Shown: positions 18,444-32,411, counted from the first letter of the stretch. The stretch: DNA of 64,000 nt from Bacteroidota bacterium (GCA_025362395.1 JANYGK010000035.1:62001-126000), one strand, 5' to 3'. Made by a program: numbers and translations. Notes: generated by a model from the letters alone, not told the origin.

Positions 18444-18506
18444 AGGATTTAACATGTTTATGAGTTACTTTTTTAATAATTTTGTTGATAAATTTGAAAA
18501 TAAGTG

Positions 18507-18514
18507 TATCTTTG
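18507..18514 (+). promoter_or_regulatory. -7 promoter box of the yceD-rpmF operon
   Basis: TATCTTTG, 22 bases before the ATG at 18537, with TTTG at 18481-18484 as a possible -33 element. It overlaps an in-frame GTG at 18504, ruling that out as the start. Confidence 0.65.
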
Positions 18515-18536
18515 CCGTCCATTTTGGAATAAAGCT

Positions 18537-19070
18537 ATGGGTAAAAGTCAGTACAAAATACAGTTTGGCGGTTTATCAATGGGGGAACACCAATTTGAGT
18601 TTGATGTTACCGAAAAGTTCTTTGAGCAATTTAATGACAGTGAAATAACTAAGGCTAATGTAGAAGTTAAAGCTAACCTGGTTAAGCAAAATAATTTAAT
18701 GCATATTTTGTTTACGTTTGAGGGTACGGTAAATCTTAGTTGCGACAGGTGTTTAATAGAATATGATTGCCCGATAAGCGGGCGTGAAAAATTAGTTATT
18801 AAGTACGGCGATCCGGCAGAAAGCAATGATGAAATATTAGTGCTGAAAGAAGGATTAGAAGAAGCGGATATTTCGCAGTACCTGTACGAATACATTGAGC
18901 TGGCTATTCCTTCGCGGAAAGTGCCGTGTGAAGATGAGGAGTTGGAGTATGATGAGCTTCCGTGTGATGAAGAAACATTGTCTAAATTTAATGAGCTTAA
19001 AATTGAAGAAGAACCGACAGAAAACCCTGAATGGGATAAATTAAAAGATATAAAGTTTAACAATAATTAA
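18537..19070 (+). CDS. yceD: YceD (DUF177) family protein
   Basis: 177 residues from the ATG at 18537 (MGKSQYKIQFGGLSMGEHQF), which is where Bacteroidota homologues begin. A frame extension to a GTG at 18504 is excluded by the promoter. DUF177 core: NLSCDRCLIEYDCPISGREK (about 75-95), with two of the Cys of the family, and an acidic C-terminus with DELPCDEE. In plants and bacteria the family is linked to 23S rRNA maturation. The gene order yceD-rpmF, with a 12-base gap, is highly conserved across bacteria and supports the call. Confidence 0.88.
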   Translation: MGKSQYKIQFGGLSMGEHQFEFDVTEKFFEQFNDSEITKANVEVKANLVKQNNLMHILFTFEGTVNLSCDRCLIEYDCPISGREKLVIKYGDPAESNDEILVLKEGLEEADISQYLYEYIELAIPSRKVPCEDEELEYDELPCDEETLSKFNELKIEEEPTENPEWDKLKDIKFNNN

Positions 19071-19082
19071 AATTAACATACC

Positions 19083-19274
19083 ATGCCTAATCCAAAACGA
19101 AAACTATCCAGATCCCGCAGAGACTCTCGTCGTTCAACATACAAAGCACCAACAATGACGATAGCAAAAGATACTACAACCGGCGAAGCACACTTATTTC
19201 ACCGTGCACACTGGTTTGAAGGAAAACTTTACTACAAAGGAAAAGTAGTAATGGAAAAAGTAGTTAAAGCTTAA
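19083..19274 (+). CDS. rpmF: 50S ribosomal protein L32
   Basis: 63 residues: [20 protein letters not shown], then [20 protein letters not shown]. The zinc-ribbon Cys pairs of many L32 proteins are absent, so this is the Cys-minus form, which needs no zinc. It lies 12 bases after yceD and ahead of a terminator. Confidence 0.97.
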
Positions 19275-19370: not shown

Positions 19371-20018
19371 ATGATGCGCCTGTTTTATTTTATACTGTTA
19401 GTAGCTGCCATTAAATGTATAAGGGCGCAGGATACTATTTATAAAAGATCAGGGGATTGCTTGGCAGCAAATATTATAGAGGTTACACCGTATGCTGTAA
19501 AATATAAAAAGATTGAAAATGTAACAGGGCCTTTATATGTTACAGACAAAACGGATATACTATTTATAAAATATAAGAACGGAAGTGTTGATACATTTAA
19601 ATTGAACGACTCTTATAGGCAGCCCGAAAAGTTTAACGCAGTTAGTGATACAAATAAAATTTACATTGTAGGCAAAAATCTTTTCTACAAGTACCATAGG
19701 CTTAATAATAACGACCTGTTAAGATTAATTTCTTTTTACCCTGATGAGGTAAAGCGTAATAGTATGATGAACGATCATAAGCAATTGCGTAGAAATAACC
19801 GGAACAGGTATACTTTTGGAATTATAGGAATTGCAATGGTTCCGCTGGGATGTTTAATTGCTGCAGGCATAAGTAGTTTAGGTGATGATACCGGTGCTGA
19901 AGGAGCTGCAGTTGCTTACTTTTTAATCGGTTCAGTTTCTGTAGGGATCTCGCAGTTTTGTAATTACCGGTATCACAATAAAAAAAAGCATATTATTGCA
20001 ACGTATAATACATTTTAA
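19371..20018 (+). CDS. secreted/membrane protein of unknown function
   Basis: 215 residues. Signal peptide (MMRLFYFILLVAAIKCIRAQ), then an early domain common in Bacteroidota: YKRSGDCLAANIIEVTPYAV, KYKKIENVTGPLYV, ILFIKYKNGSVDTF. Two hydrophobic stretches lie near 148-168 (FGIIGIAMVPLGCLIAAGI) and 178-196, followed by a basic tail. Its stop codon overlaps the ATG of the first ketosynthase gene (TAATG at 20016-20020), so the two are translationally coupled. Whether this means a role in the ketosynthase pathway is unknown. Confidence 0.7.
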   Translation: MMRLFYFILLVAAIKCIRAQDTIYKRSGDCLAANIIEVTPYAVKYKKIENVTGPLYVTDKTDILFIKYKNGSVDTFKLNDSYRQPEKFNAVSDTNKIYIVGKNLFYKYHRLNNNDLLRLISFYPDEVKRNSMMNDHKQLRRNNRNRYTFGIIGIAMVPLGCLIAAGISSLGDDTGAEGAAVAYFLIGSVSVGISQFCNYRYHNKKKHIIATYNTF

Positions 20019-21151
20019 TGGTCTTTACTTCCTATAGCAATATTATCAGTCCGCTTGGCTTTTCAACTAAAGAAAACTACGAGGCAGTATGTGCTTCAAA
20101 AACGGGGATTAAGAAAATACTGTTCCCGTTTTCAGCTGAACCATTTTGTGTGGGGAAGATCGATGAAATTACTATTCAGAAACATCTCTTATCTATTGCC
20201 AATAGTGAAGCGTATACCAAGCTTGAGCAGTTAAGCATCATGTCAATACAGGATGTTATCGATCAAAGCGGCATAGATGCTAAGGATAAAAGGAACTTAT
20301 TGATCTATTCTACTACTAAAGGGAATATTGATATCCTTGAAGGCGCTTATAAAAACATAGATGCTAACAGAGCTTACCTGCCCGTTTTTGCAAAGCAATT
20401 GCAAACGTATTTTAAATTTGCACATACACCGGTAGTCTTATCAAATGCCTGTATATCGGGCATATTAGCCATTATTGTTGCTAAGCGTTTTATTGAACAA
20501 GGCACATACGATACTGTTATTGTTTGCGGGGGCGATCTTTTATCGGAGTTTACCGTAAGTGGGTTTAAATCGTTCAGTGCATTAAGCAATGAACCGAGCA
20601 GGCCGTTTGATACGGATAGAGTAGGAATTAACCTCGGTGAAGCAGTTGCAAGTATTTTAATAACAAATAACAAGGAGTTGGCAACACCTTATAATATGCA
20701 GGTTATAAGCGGTGCATCAGCTAATGATGCCAATCATATTTCCGGTCCTTCACGCACGGGCGAAGGTTTATATCAATCATTGCAATATACCCTAGAAGGA
20801 AAAAATACCCGGGACATCGGTTTTATTTCGGCGCACGGAACGGCCACACCTTTTAATGATGAAATGGAATCGATTGCTTTTGAAAGGGCCGGGTTATCAA
20901 CGGTTCCTGTGAACAGTTTAAAAGGATACTATGGTCATACACTTGGCGCAGCAGGTGTTTTGGAAACCATCCTTTCTTTGGAATCATTAAAGCATCAACG
21001 TTTAATTAAGTCGGAAGGCTATCATAAAAAAGGAGTGAGCGGAAATATTACTATGATAGAAACGCATGAACCAAAAACATTTTCGGCTTTTATAAAAACA
21101 GCGTCGGGCTTTGGTGGTTGTAATGCAGCGGCGTTGTTTGCTAAAGTATAG
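20018..21151 (+). CDS. beta-ketoacyl-ACP synthase (FabF/KS-like), flexirubin/aryl-polyene-locus type
   Basis: 377 residues, thiolase fold. The catalytic triad looks complete: Cys145 in SNACISGILA, His in ISAHGTATPFNDEMES (about 275) and His in GYYGHTLGAAGVLE (about 308). It is divergent from housekeeping FabF and closest in pattern to ketosynthases of aryl-polyene/flexirubin-type loci. It would extend an ACP-bound acyl chain with malonyl-ACP. It starts within the stop of the upstream gene; the next gene of the locus is 104 bases downstream. Confidence 0.88.
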   Translation: MVFTSYSNIISPLGFSTKENYEAVCASKTGIKKILFPFSAEPFCVGKIDEITIQKHLLSIANSEAYTKLEQLSIMSIQDVIDQSGIDAKDKRNLLIYSTTKGNIDILEGAYKNIDANRAYLPVFAKQLQTYFKFAHTPVVLSNACISGILAIIVAKRFIEQGTYDTVIVCGGDLLSEFTVSGFKSFSALSNEPSRPFDTDRVGINLGEAVASILITNNKELATPYNMQVISGASANDANHISGPSRTGEGLYQSLQYTLEGKNTRDIGFISAHGTATPFNDEMESIAFERAGLSTVPVNSLKGYYGHTLGAAGVLETILSLESLKHQRLIKSEGYHKKGVSGNITMIETHEPKTFSAFIKTASGFGGCNAAALFAKV

Positions 21152-21255
21152 AGGCATTAACCATATAAGATAAAAAATAAATCGATCGAAAAGAAATGAT
21201 AAAACATATAAAAACTTATATAAACTTTCATAATTTATATGGTTAAAAAAATCTG

Positions 21256-21906
21256 ATGAAAAAACACATTATCTCATACGCTCATATTAAACAAAACCAA
21301 GTTTCCGTAAACGGCACTATTATGTTTAGTGCTGCCCCATCAACTACCTTACCCGAATTTTTAACGGAACTCTATAAGTCAATGGGAATAAGCTATCCCA
21401 AGTTTCATAAAATGGATGCTTTATGTAAGCTCGGTATTTTATGCACAGAGTTTGCTTTAAAAGACACCACATTTCTTGCCGATAATCCGTTGAATAAAAT
21501 TGCCGTTGTATTATCAAATGCGTCGTCAAGCCTGGAAACAGATCGCCGGCATCAGCAGGCGATTGATGATAAATCAAATTATTTTCCTTCACCTACGGTG
21601 TTTGTTTATACACTTCCAAATATTATAATCGGCGAAATTGCTATTAAGTATAAAATCACAGGAGAAAACGCTTTTTTTGTATCCGAAAAATTTGATGCGG
21701 GTTTATTGGTGAGTTATACAGAGGCCTTATTTAGTGAGCAAACCCAAGCAGCAGTGTGTGGTTGGATTGAGGTAGATAATGGAGCGTATGAAGCCTTTAT
21801 TTTTTTGACGGAAATACAGGAAAATACAAATAAAAACACTAATTTTAAACCTCTTAATCAATTAACTGTAATAGAATTATACAATCAAACGATATGGACG
21901 CATTAA
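21256..21906 (+). CDS. beta-ketoacyl synthase N-terminal-like domain protein
   Basis: 216 residues matching only the N-terminal half of a ketosynthase (Ketoacyl-synt_2 type). Landmarks: VVLSNASSSLETDRRHQQAI (about 87-107), FPSPTVFVYTLPNIIIGEIA (109-128), then FFVSEKFDAGLLVSYTEALF. There is no active-site Cys in the right context and no C-terminal half, so it cannot be a complete synthase. Such half-KS proteins are typical companions in aryl-polyene/flexirubin loci. Its end overlaps the ACP start by 13 bases. Confidence 0.8.
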   Translation: MKKHIISYAHIKQNQVSVNGTIMFSAAPSTTLPEFLTELYKSMGISYPKFHKMDALCKLGILCTEFALKDTTFLADNPLNKIAVVLSNASSSLETDRRHQQAIDDKSNYFPSPTVFVYTLPNIIIGEIAIKYKITGENAFFVSEKFDAGLLVSYTEALFSEQTQAAVCGWIEVDNGAYEAFIFLTEIQENTNKNTNFKPLNQLTVIELYNQTIWTH

Positions 21907-22151
21907 TAGAAAAATTAAAAGGACAGATTATAGAACAACTTAACCTGGTTGAATTAAAGCCGGAAGAAATTAATCCGGATTCTCCGTTATTTGGTGAAGG
22001 TTTAGGATTAGACTCTATTGATGCATTGGAACTGATCGTTTTATTGGAAAAGCATTACGGGATTAAAATAGAAGATCCTAAAGACGGAAAAACTATTTTT
22101 CAGTCTATCAGAACCATGGCAGAATATATTAAAGCTCAGGGAAAATCATAA
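21894..22151 (+). CDS. acyl carrier protein
   Basis: 85 residues. The four-helix ACP pattern has the 4'-phosphopantetheine attachment Ser41 in GLGLDSIDALELIVLLEKHY. It is a pathway-specific ACP: acidic, but different from housekeeping AcpP (GADSLDTVEL). It overlaps the preceding gene by 13 bases and is followed after eight bases by a ketosynthase that starts with TTG. Confidence 0.93.
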   Translation: MDALIEKLKGQIIEQLNLVELKPEEINPDSPLFGEGLGLDSIDALELIVLLEKHYGIKIEDPKDGKTIFQSIRTMAEYIKAQGKS

Positions 22152-22159
22152 ATTAAGTT

Positions 22160-23356
22160 TTGTCTCAACACATTTACATTACGGGTTTAGGAATGATTTC
22201 AGCCATTGGAAACAATGTCCAGGAATCTCTTGCGTCTTTATCTCATTCCAAAACAGGGATAGGGAAGATCAATTATTTGACTACTCGTTATAAAGATGAT
22301 TTTTTAGCCGGTGAAATTAAACTCTCCAATAAAGAATTAGCCGATTTAGTAAATGATCACAATCCTGAATTAAACCGTAATTCTTACATTGCCATGTTGG
22401 CTGCTAAAGAGGCCGTTCAACATTCGGGTATTGATACATCTGATGGATTGCGCACCGGTATTATTTCCTCTACAACCGTTGCCGGTATGGGTAAAACAGA
22501 GATGTATTACAAAGACCTGTTCGAAAAAAATGATCACCTGGACGTGTTGGATACGCATGATTGCGGCGACAGCACCGAACGCATTGCCGATTTTTTAGGG
22601 AATGTAGATTATGTCACAACAATTTCAACGGCCTGCTCATCGGCTGCTAATGCTATTATGCTGGGTTGCCGTATGATAAAAAACGGCTTGCTTGATAGAG
22701 CGATTGTTGGCGGAGTGGATGCCTTATCAAAATTTACATTTAATGGTTTTAATACTTTAATGATTTTGGATAAAGAATGGTGCAAGCCGTTTGATGAAAA
22801 CCGTAAAGGCCTGAACCTTGGTGAGGGCGCAGCTTTTTTAGTAATAGAAAGTGAAGAAGCGTTAAAGAAACGAAACGGAAAAGCGTTGGCCGAAATTATA
22901 GGTTACGCCAATGCAAATGATGCATACCACCAAACAGCCTCATCACCGGAAGGTTACGGCGCTCAGTTAGCCATAGAGCAAGCTTTGCAAATGAGCGGAT
23001 TAAAACCCGGTGATATTGATTACATTAATATGCACGGTACAGGTACACCAAATAATGATCTGTCGGAAGGTGCCGCCGTTAAAGCAGTGTTCGGCGCTCA
23101 CATTCCTAAGTTCAGTTCTACCAAAGCATTTACGGGACATACCTTAGCGGCATCAGCAAGTATTGAAGCCGTTATATCAGTACTCTCTATACAGAACGGA
23201 ATGATATTTCCGAACCTTAATTTTAAAACACCTATTGCGGAATTAGGCATTGTGCCTGAAACCACAGTAGTGAAAATGCCTGTCAGTACAGTGCTTTCTA
23301 ACTCATTCGGGTTCGGGGGTAACTGCTCATCTTTAATATTTAAGAAAGTAGATTAG
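22160..23356 (+). CDS. beta-ketoacyl-ACP synthase, second copy
   Basis: 398 residues. Full catalytic set: Cys159 in STACSSAANAIMLG, His in NMHGTGTPNNDLSEG (about 295) and His in AFTGHTLAASASIEAV (about 329). The start is TTG (MSQHIYITGLGMISAIGNNV), eight bases after the ACP stop; no ATG fits, since the conserved N-terminal strand begins immediately. It ends directly before the Cys-less homologue (no intergenic base). Together they look like a ketosynthase/chain-length-factor pair of the kind found in aryl-polyene and type II polyketide systems. Confidence 0.92.
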   Translation: MSQHIYITGLGMISAIGNNVQESLASLSHSKTGIGKINYLTTRYKDDFLAGEIKLSNKELADLVNDHNPELNRNSYIAMLAAKEAVQHSGIDTSDGLRTGIISSTTVAGMGKTEMYYKDLFEKNDHLDVLDTHDCGDSTERIADFLGNVDYVTTISTACSSAANAIMLGCRMIKNGLLDRAIVGGVDALSKFTFNGFNTLMILDKEWCKPFDENRKGLNLGEGAAFLVIESEEALKKRNGKALAEIIGYANANDAYHQTASSPEGYGAQLAIEQALQMSGLKPGDIDYINMHGTGTPNNDLSEGAAVKAVFGAHIPKFSSTKAFTGHTLAASASIEAVISVLSIQNGMIFPNLNFKTPIAELGIVPETTVVKMPVSTVLSNSFGFGGNCSSLIFKKVD

Positions 23357-24418
23357 TTGGTAAAGGCTTACATAAACGGCACAGGCTGCATTTCTTCGCA
23401 GGATACCATTAACGATCAATGGTTTTTTGATCCGGTAGTTGAACCTAACGGCGATTACTATAACGCCATTGAACCGTCTTACAAAGAATTTATTGCTCCT
23501 AATTTATTACGCCGCATGGGCCGTGCCATTAAAATGGGAGTGGCAAGCGCTAACCTTGCCATTAAACAGGCGGGCGCCACAAAGGTTGATGCTATTATTA
23601 CAGGTACAGGCTTAGGTTGCTTTGAAGACAGTGAACGTTTTTTACTGGCGATGCTTAATAACGAAGAGCAATTTTTAACACCTACTTCTTTTATACAATC
23701 CACCCATAACACAGTTGGCTCGCAAATAGCGCTAATCATGAAATGCCATGACTATAATTTTACTTACGTGCACCGCGGTTTTTCCTTTGAAAGCACCTTA
23801 CAGGACGCCTTAATGTTATTTAGCGAAGGCAAAGAAACCGTGTTGGTTGGAGGGATAGAAGAACACACACCTAACTTTATTATACTGAATCGTAAGGCAG
23901 GTAAATTTAAAATTTTCGATCATCATACTGCTTTTTGGAAACCTTCGGCTAAGGGAATACAAATGAGCGAAGGTTCTACTTTTTTTGTATTGAATAAAAC
24001 CAAAACAGAAAAAAGCTTGGCGAGTGTTGACGGGATCCAAACCTTGTATAAGCCTGCAACAAGCGATGTTATTTTACAAAAACTGTATTCGTTTTTAAAG
24101 TTGCACAGCTTACTGTTAACAGATATTGATGTATGCTTAATGGGCTTTAGTTCTGATATTGATTTCGATAAACAGTTAAGAGAACTGCTGCCTGTTATAA
24201 AAGAGGAAACCATTGCCGCGCACTATAAACACCTTTCCGGAGAATACCATACAGCGTCGGCATTTGCCTTATGGACAGCCACTAAATTAATAGAGAAGCA
24301 GCAATTGCCCGAAGTGCTGGCTATATCAAATAAAAAACCGAACGGGATAAAACACGTTTTAATAATCAATCAGTATTTAGGAATTAATTATTCGTTTACA
24401 TTAGTCAGCAAGTGTTAG
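23357..24418 (+). CDS. ketosynthase-like protein lacking the active-site Cys (chain-length-factor-like)
   Basis: 353 residues of the thiolase/KS fold: GRAIKMGVASANLAIKQAG (about 55-73), IITGTGLGCFEDSERF, FIQSTHNTVGSQIALIM. At the place of the catalytic TACSS it has VHRGFSFEST (about 139-146), so no nucleophilic Cys. The HGT motif is also missing; only GEYHTASAFALWTA remains. Such proteins act as partners of an active ketosynthase. The start is TTG at 23357, abutting the stop of the active ketosynthase gene, so expression must be tightly coupled to it. Confidence 0.82.
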   Translation: MVKAYINGTGCISSQDTINDQWFFDPVVEPNGDYYNAIEPSYKEFIAPNLLRRMGRAIKMGVASANLAIKQAGATKVDAIITGTGLGCFEDSERFLLAMLNNEEQFLTPTSFIQSTHNTVGSQIALIMKCHDYNFTYVHRGFSFESTLQDALMLFSEGKETVLVGGIEEHTPNFIILNRKAGKFKIFDHHTAFWKPSAKGIQMSEGSTFFVLNKTKTEKSLASVDGIQTLYKPATSDVILQKLYSFLKLHSLLLTDIDVCLMGFSSDIDFDKQLRELLPVIKEETIAAHYKHLSGEYHTASAFALWTATKLIEKQQLPEVLAISNKKPNGIKHVLIINQYLGINYSFTLVSKC

Positions 24419-24507
24419 TGCTTATAAATTGAATCACATAAATACATAGTTATGCGACCCGGTTATTTACTGTTTCTTCTATGTTCCTGTGTGGTTAAAT
24501 ATTAGAT

Positions 24508-25266
24508 ATGTCATTAAGTAAATTCATAAAGTTTTTGCCGACTACACTCCTTTTCTTTCTAGGCTTTATTACTTTTTTCTTTTTTCAATATTCGCTTCAC
24601 CTAAGTTATTTTATACTCGCCGGGTGGGTTCTTTTATTTTTAAGCATCCAGTTTTGCGGCGCTTACTTTATAGGCTTAAATTTTCATCTCATATCTCTCA
24701 ATAAGCTTAACACAAACCAAAAACAAGTATTGCTCACCTTCGATGACGGCCCGCATAGCCCAAACACTGTAAAGGTTTTAGAAGTATTAAAAAAACATAA
24801 CGTCAAAGCAGTTTTTTTTGTGATCGGTAAAAATATACCGGGAAATGAAGCTGTGCTTAAACAAATTATTGCGGAAGGTCATCAGCTTGGCAACCATAGT
24901 TTTTCGCATCACAATTTTATTGATGTATGGCCAACTAAAAAAGTAACGGCAGACTTTGCGCAGTGCCAAACATTAATTGAAAGCTATCAGCCAAATCAAA
25001 AGTTGTTTCGTCCGCCTTATGGAGTAACGAATCCTAACCTTGCAAAAGCGATAAAGCAATTACAGCTGCAGTCTATAGGTTGGAGTATTCGAAGCTACGA
25101 TACGAGTATTAAAAATGTAGAGAAAATAAAACTACGGATCCTTTCTCAATTAAAACCCGGGGCTATTATTTTGCTGCACGACCGTTTAGACTTTGTGCCC
25201 GAGTTGTTGGAAGAACTCATTCCTGCTGTTAAAGATAAAGGGTATGAGTTTGTGAATTCTGTTTAG
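24508..25266 (+). CDS. polysaccharide deacetylase family protein (NodB homology)
   Basis: 252 residues. Two N-terminal transmembrane segments (about 8-28 and 32-54), then a NodB domain. Motif 1 is LLTFDDGPHSPNTVKVL (about 74-90, catalytic Asp and metal Asp); motif 2 is GHQLGNHSFSHHNF (about 129-142, metal His pair); motif 3 is LFRPPYGVTN (Arg-Pro-Pro). Motif 5 is AIILLHDR. All catalytic residues are present. Acts on an acetylated glycan or lipid-linked substrate at the membrane. It follows the ketosynthase locus by 89 bases on the same strand; the association is plausible but not proven. Confidence 0.87.
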   Translation: MSLSKFIKFLPTTLLFFLGFITFFFFQYSLHLSYFILAGWVLLFLSIQFCGAYFIGLNFHLISLNKLNTNQKQVLLTFDDGPHSPNTVKVLEVLKKHNVKAVFFVIGKNIPGNEAVLKQIIAEGHQLGNHSFSHHNFIDVWPTKKVTADFAQCQTLIESYQPNQKLFRPPYGVTNPNLAKAIKQLQLQSIGWSIRSYDTSIKNVEKIKLRILSQLKPGAIILLHDRLDFVPELLEELIPAVKDKGYEFVNSV

Positions 25267-31613: not shown

Positions 31614-32411
31614 TTAATAAGGACTTTGCTTCCTAATAATTCTGCCGAATAAGTTAGGAAAAAAACGTTTTATTTTAACGATCATTAATTCTTTACCGCC
31701 AATAAATACTTCTTCTTTATTATTTAAGATGCCCGAAATGATCTGTTTAGCACACTCCTCAGTGCCCATCGCTTTTTCATGGCTCTCGTCCATTTTGTTG
31801 TGAGTATTCCCTGTTCCTGCTTCCGCGTTTAAGGATACACCGGTTTTTATTTTTCCGGGAGAAACAATTAATACAGATACACCTTTGGTTTCGATTTCTA
31901 AACGTAAGCTTTCAAAATACCCGTATAAGGCATGTTTAGCGGCAGAATAGGTAGAGCGTAAATAAAAACCAAACTTACCTGCAATACTACTGACTACTAC
32001 AATTTTGCCCTTACCTTTTTTTAGCATGACCGGTAAAACAGCTTTCGATAAATTAACGGCTGAAAAATAATTGATCTCAAATAACTTTCGTTCTGTTTCC
32101 GCTGAAGTGCTCATGGCTTCTGCGCGTTGGCTTTGTCCGCCGTTATTGATTAACAGGTCAATTGTTCCAAACTTTTCTATAATAACTTTAGCATAGTCAT
32201 TTGCTTTTGAAGTATCAGATAAATCGAACGGTAGTATTAAAGAATTAGTTTCCGTTAGCTTTGCGTGTTTCGCTACACGGTTTAATTCGTCAATCCTGCG
32301 TGCAGATAAAATAATTTTGGCGCCTTGTCGGGCACACTCATATACCAATGCTTCACCAATACCCGACGACGCGCCGGTAATCCAAATAACTTTATGACTT
32401 AATGTGTTCAT
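31614..32411 (-). CDS. short-chain dehydrogenase/reductase
   Basis: 265 residues, classical SDR. Cofactor motif ITGASSGIGEALVYECAR (about 11-28, TGxxxGxG), NNGG (about 89), catalytic Ser in VVVSSIAGKFG and YSAAKHALYGYF (Tyr155/Lys159 region). The Arg-rich beta2 region (SARRIDEL) suggests NADP(H). The C-terminus IVKIKRFFPNLFGRIIRKQS is typical of the DHRS7-like bacterial SDRs. It overlaps the GT9 gene by four bases, so it is in the glycan operon. Confidence 0.92.
   Translation of the reverse strand: MNTLSHKVIWITGASSGIGEALVYECARQGAKIILSARRIDELNRVAKHAKLTETNSLILPFDLSDTSKANDYAKVIIEKFGTIDLLINNGGQSQRAEAMSTSAETERKLFEINYFSAVNLSKAVLPVMLKKGKGKIVVVSSIAGKFGFYLRSTYSAAKHALYGYFESLRLEIETKGVSVLIVSPGKIKTGVSLNAEAGTGNTHNKMDESHEKAMGTEECAKQIISGILNNKEEVFIGGKELMIVKIKRFFPNLFGRIIRKQSPY

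Follow-up and report, generated by a model that had tools for sequence, protein, structure and literature searches.

We find that a six-gene ketosynthase locus in a 64,000-nucleotide stretch of DNA from a Bacteroidota genome (the window) is very probably the elongation core of a complete flexirubin-type pathway, which joins an aryl-polyene carboxylic acid to a dialkylresorcinol and whose genes, ancestrally in a single cluster, are now scattered over about nine places. This reading draws on gene identity, intact active sites, the order of the block, the presence of the parts in one genome and their co-occurrence; from these we infer the catalysis, the pairing of KS1 with half-KS and of KS2 with CLF, the exact product and its export.

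The window genes were typed with Pfam and NCBIfam profiles. All six ORFs are on the plus strand between 20018 and 25266, in the order given by the first-pass annotation (KS, half-KS, ACP, KS, Cys-less KS, deacetylase), directly downstream of yceD-rpmF:

18504..19070, +, yceD/DUF177-like gene, chromosomal neighbour of the block in the genus, outside the pathway
19083-19274, rpmF (L32), beside the yceD/DUF177-like gene, outside the pathway
20018..21151, +, KS1 (Ketoacyl-synt_C, PRK09185), Cys-His-His intact, catalytic ketosynthase by sequence, best PDB match ApeO (6qsp_A)
21256..21906, +, half-KS, 216 aa, weak ketoacyl-synt match, no catalytic Cys, chain-length-factor-like, top fold match ApeC (6qsp_B)
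21894..22151, +, ACP1, acyl carrier protein (PRK09184, above cut-off), phosphopantetheine site GLDSIDALE with the DSL serine
22160..23356, +, KS2 (PRK09185/FabF-like), Cys-His-His intact, catalytic ketosynthase by sequence
23357..24418, +, CLF, full-size Cys-less KS partner (Ketoacyl-synt_2), KS fold by AlphaFold
24508..25266, +, flxP-like polysaccharide deacetylase (Polysacc_deac_1), conserved flexirubin-cluster member

The Cys-His-His triad is thus kept in both KS1 and KS2 and absent from half-KS and CLF, and the start of ACP1 (21894) overlaps the end of the half-KS gene (21906). The half-KS gene is not a truncated one, because its product is ~200-230 aa long in all relatives. Measured against G006, all six genes have dN 0.03-0.27 with dS 1.7 to saturated; this purifying selection, together with the same gene order in relatives, puts the block far beyond chance. 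The yceD-rpmF neighbourhood recurs in the genus (loci L056-L062), and a 215-aa ORF (19371-20018) whose stop overlaps the start of KS1 is seen in the window genome only. Among the neighbours in the window there is no flexirubin gene besides the block; the reductase, dehydratase, thioesterase and exporter reported missing in the first reading are indeed absent there. An SDR at 31614-32411 shows a likeness of only 30% to the pathway reductase.

To place the two Cys-less proteins we turn to structure. AlphaFold models, each of a single chain only, give the KS fold for half-KS (pLDDT 88) and for CLF (pLDDT 89). The top PDB match of half-KS in a fold search is ApeC (6qsp_B, TM 0.56), with other KS and CLF chains close behind; phmmer against the PDB returns no significant match for half-KS, and its placement is by the AlphaFold model alone. 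For CLF, the sole phmmer match is ApeC (6qsp_B), at a marginal E of 0.005, and the best PDB match of KS1 is ApeO. A catalytic KS adjoining a half-size Cys-less KS, a feature of the ApeO-ApeC type, is present in the block. Polyene chains of full length are built by ApeO-ApeC in aryl polyene synthesis, where a second KS, ApeR, is shorter-acting (PMC8358021). Like the aryl polyene cluster apeA-R (PMC8358021, PMC8253772; PDB 6qsp, 7f28, 7f27), the block has a catalytic KS together with a half-size partner that lacks the Cys, and a further KS besides. The aryl polyene cluster contains a single CLF, of half size, where the window block has two Cys-less partners, one half-size and one full-size; it is also without dialkylresorcinol genes, whereas the window genome has DarA and DarB. 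By analogy with aryl polyene synthesis, and from gene order, we propose two putative KS-partner pairs, KS1/half-KS and KS2/CLF.

The block is not peculiar to this genome. A search of 60 related genomes with CLF gives a match in 26, with one copy in the window's own genome, and in the carriers of the window's family whose surrounding DNA was read the six genes stand in unchanged order. Outside the genus, the block is flanked by a thioesterase (TE) on one side and/or by LolA, a LolB-like gene and a dehydratase (DH) on the other. In a public comparison set of 80 loci, Flavobacterium, Arenibacter, Aquimarina and others show the full order: DarA, DarB, DH, DH, DarG, DarH, ABC, ABC, TE, followed by KS1, half-KS, ACP, KS2, CLF, deacetylase, LolA2, LolB2, DH, GT2, MMPL, CrtI. 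The window block has the internal gene order of these full flexirubin clusters: Flavobacterium, Arenibacter, Aquimarina, Sporocytophaga and MAGs have the six genes mid-cluster, arranged as in the window. Thioesterase adjoins and precedes KS1 in 62 of 67 public loci; of the 74 loci with room downstream of CLF, 68 have LolA2 there at ≤4 kb. The flexirubin cluster is known from F. johnsoniae and C. pinensis, whose clusters hold the same gene set: several ketosynthases, FlxA, FlxB, a deacetylase, LolA, a glycosyltransferase, an exporter and DarA/DarB (PMC3992019). Compared with the full clusters, the window genome has thioesterase and LolA2 as direct neighbours, and the KS block that stands between them in those clusters lies elsewhere. 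As separate observations, the KS2-CLF pair is doubled in tandem within the flexirubin-like cluster of several MAGs labelled Bacteroidales or Bacteroidetes (L104, L110, L120, L144, L149).

The other functions lie elsewhere in the same genome (4.08 Mb in 118 contigs, 99% complete). A whole-genome search for the dehydratase, reductase, MMPL exporter and LolA-like genes finds all of them on other contigs, and with them the thioesterase, ammonia-lyase, acyltransferase, DarA/DarB and ABC genes, which bears out one of the two options raised by the first-pass annotation, a pathway split across the genome:

C75:10503-12599, TE, LolA2, LolB2, DH1 side by side, as in a full cluster without the six-gene block
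C42:16908-21769, LPLAT, ACP, KS, FlxB and FlxA
C16:61925-64483, DarB, DarG and DarH
C16:93114-95581, DH2 and an ABC pair
C39, DarA, 60% identical to a DarA lying in a full cluster
C19, CrtI-like oxidase
C96, GT2 glycosyltransferase
Ends of C47 and C48, halves of an MMPL-acyltransferase-methyltransferase protein cut by the two contig ends

On C75 the spacing from TE to LolA2 is 25 bases, as if the block had been taken out between them. Seven proteins pass curated NCBIfam cut-offs for flexirubin or dialkylresorcinol families: FlxA, a tyrosine ammonia-lyase (TAL; NF053541, 820 bits against a cut-off of 700), the reductase FlxB (NF053542, 384 against 340), DarB (NF053539, 604 against 550), DarG, DarH, and LolA2 and LolB2, which exceed the LolA2_flexi and LolB2_flexi cut-offs (NF053544, NF053540). 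DarA gives no match to the curated family models; DH1 belongs to PF07977. No gene is missing among those looked for: thioesterase, dehydratases, ketoreductase, ammonia-lyase, acyltransferase, DarA/DarB, CrtI-like oxidase, GT2, ABC and MMPL transporters and LolA2/LolB2 all lie on other contigs. In the flexirubin loci of PMC11885536, LolA2 and LolB2 always lie inside the pigment locus, whereas here they stand with TE and DH on a contig other than that of the KS block.

Two further candidates were set aside in this search. The PF03176 matches on C33, C70 and C77 are not the pigment exporter, and the proteins of a KS-KR-DH-FabD cassette on C64, tried as the missing half, are not flexirubin orthologs. 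That cassette (L009, 6045-16000) is a second type-II PKS-like set of FabD, a FabZ-like dehydratase, KS, FabG, an HMG-CoA-synthase-like protein and a crotonase, close to which lies a HetI/Sfp-type phosphopantetheinyl transferase. The set looks like a beta-branching cassette, but no acceptor PKS is obvious.

Are the dispersed genes kept together? Across 31 genomes (related to one another, so that the counts are not independent samples), the KS block, LolA2, DarA and the flexirubin TAL are all present in 23 and all absent in 8. This bears on the other option of the first-pass annotation, a reduced set working by itself, whose product, an acyl chain bound to the ACP, would serve an envelope glycan on which the deacetylase would act. 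The locus does stand alone, without ketoreductase, dehydratase, thioesterase or export genes, and its last gene is a deacetylase. We consider this reading very improbable: the absent functions are found elsewhere in the genome as flexirubin orthologs, several of them above curated cut-offs, the block never occurs without DarA, LolA2 and TAL among the 31 genomes, and flexirubin clusters ordinarily include the deacetylase, which occurs in 68 of 74 public loci and is called flxP in Chitinophaga pinensis (PMC3992019). The deacetylase beside the KS genes thus belongs to flexirubin and is no hint of a separate glycan pathway.

Could the block instead be a part of a flexirubin cluster that was left over or duplicated and is no longer used? 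It does lie apart from the other genes, and copies adjoining LolA2 exist in relatives. The duplicate-fragment idea, also raised in the first reading, falls on the copy number: the missing genes are indeed elsewhere, but the genome has no second KS1/half-KS/CLF set (one CLF match, with all KS-family matches inspected), and the block is therefore not a duplicate. The block is also very unlikely to be a disused remnant: it is the sole copy in the genome, its genes are all intact with dN/dS well below 1, and every one of the 16 carrier genomes in the genus keeps it, with the same neighbourhood in those read.

We return to the dispersed flexirubin pathway and ask how its parts are laid out in relatives. 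None of the 16 carrier genomes of the genus, our own included, has the KS block close to LolA2: the two lie on separate contigs or are widely spaced. On one contig of G014 (C4), DarA (81 kb), LolA2 (144 kb) and CLF (359 kb) are 60-280 kb apart, and in G024 DarA, DH2, CrtI and GT2 lie 59-285 kb apart on a single contig. An assembly artefact as the cause of the split can be rejected on these three pieces and four markers: with the KS block, LolA2 and DarA 60-280 kb apart on a single contig of G014, the split does not come from assembly. In G026 (6 contigs) the KS block and LolA2 are together, as are DarA, DarB, DH2 and ABC, and TAL, MMPL, CrtI and GT2 are apart. Counted among the markers seen, the pathway occupies one place in G056 and G057, about three in G027 and G039, six in G026, and eight to nine in G024 and the window's genus, which forms a graded series of dispersal. 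The break points differ along it, since the thioesterase accompanies the KS block in G024 and LolA2 in the window's genus. In the window's own genome, an ancestral single cluster appears broken into about nine pieces, the window block and eight others.

For comparison, F. johnsoniae has one 37-kb cluster and C. pinensis two loci, with dar apart from flx (PMC3992019), against about nine places here. The one-or-two-cluster layout of known flexirubin pathways is thus not found in this genome; clustering is a layout and not a biochemical requirement, and so dispersal does not exclude membership. Only the layout is new, namely extreme dispersal with concerted retention: the biochemistry is known, and two loci were already known in C. 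pinensis. In the literature searched we found no paper describing dispersal wider than two loci, which is not proof of absence.

The history of the block appears to be one of descent. CLF distances agree with rpoC distances (Spearman 0.87; 0.61 within the genus; 0 of 2000 permutations), and the block was thus inherited with the genome; a recent horizontal arrival is not supported, the GC content being 38% against 36% for the window. In the rpoC tree, four non-carriers fall inside the genus; one of them, G010, is the fully supported sister of the carrier G002, and at least G010 stands apart from the other non-carriers. This suggests that the entire dispersed set disappeared on more than one occasion; with many weakly supported forks and some incomplete genomes, the number of losses is uncertain. 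Taken together, we think it likely that a cluster of some 25 genes was dismantled stepwise in an uncultured Bacteroidota family while staying functional, vertically inherited and kept or lost only whole, and that the pathway thus persists without clustering. In G007 (same genus, ~99% complete), which carries the KS block, LolA2, DarA, TAL and GT2, no large MMPL-acyltransferase protein was found; possibly it has another exporter, or the assembly has a gap.

The pathway as we picture it would start with FlxA (C42) converting tyrosine to 4-coumarate. Once an ACP carries the starter, the putative pairs KS1/half-KS and KS2/CLF would add malonyl units to it on the window ACP, and FlxB (C42) with the two dehydratases (C75, C16) would turn the beta-keto group of each unit into a double bond. 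The thioesterase of C75 would free the polyene, DarA and DarB (C39, C16) would supply the dialkylresorcinol, and acyltransferases (DarH, the C42 LPLAT and the MMPL-fused one) could join and anchor the parts. The pigment would reach the outer membrane via MMPL/ABC and LolA2/LolB2. A related aryl polyene/dialkylresorcinol product rather than a classical flexirubin, with another head-group decoration or with polyene and resorcinol used separately, is unlikely, though clearly the strongest of the alternatives. Methylation and halogenation genes are not all traced, the MMPL protein has a methyltransferase domain, and sequence cannot give the product; set against this, FlxA, FlxB, DarB, DarG, DarH, LolA2 and LolB2 all exceed flexirubin or dialkylresorcinol cut-offs, and the gene set matches that of producers such as Flavobacterium.

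For a probable flexirubin pathway laid out in this way, it is easy to see how antiSMASH-type cluster mining, which would see only a 'minimal KS/ACP locus' here, could miss or misname the complete pathway; the other members of the genus would be affected likewise. With their one, three, six and nine pieces, the relatives offer a natural test of what holds biosynthetic genes together, and of whether a vertically inherited pathway needs clustering.

Some loci depart from the common arrangement in other ways. Mucilaginibacter agri (L159, 8066-11056 and around) has a rearranged flexirubin-like cluster with KS1, half-KS, KS2, CLF and DH, no adjoining deacetylase, LolA or thioesterase, and dar genes on the opposite strand. 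In G014 (locus L061, 12450-13241) an additional 263-aa gene, unrelated to a 262-aa gene upstream of KS1 in G026, lies between KS1 and half-KS, a position in which an ORF is also present in many Flavobacterium-type clusters.
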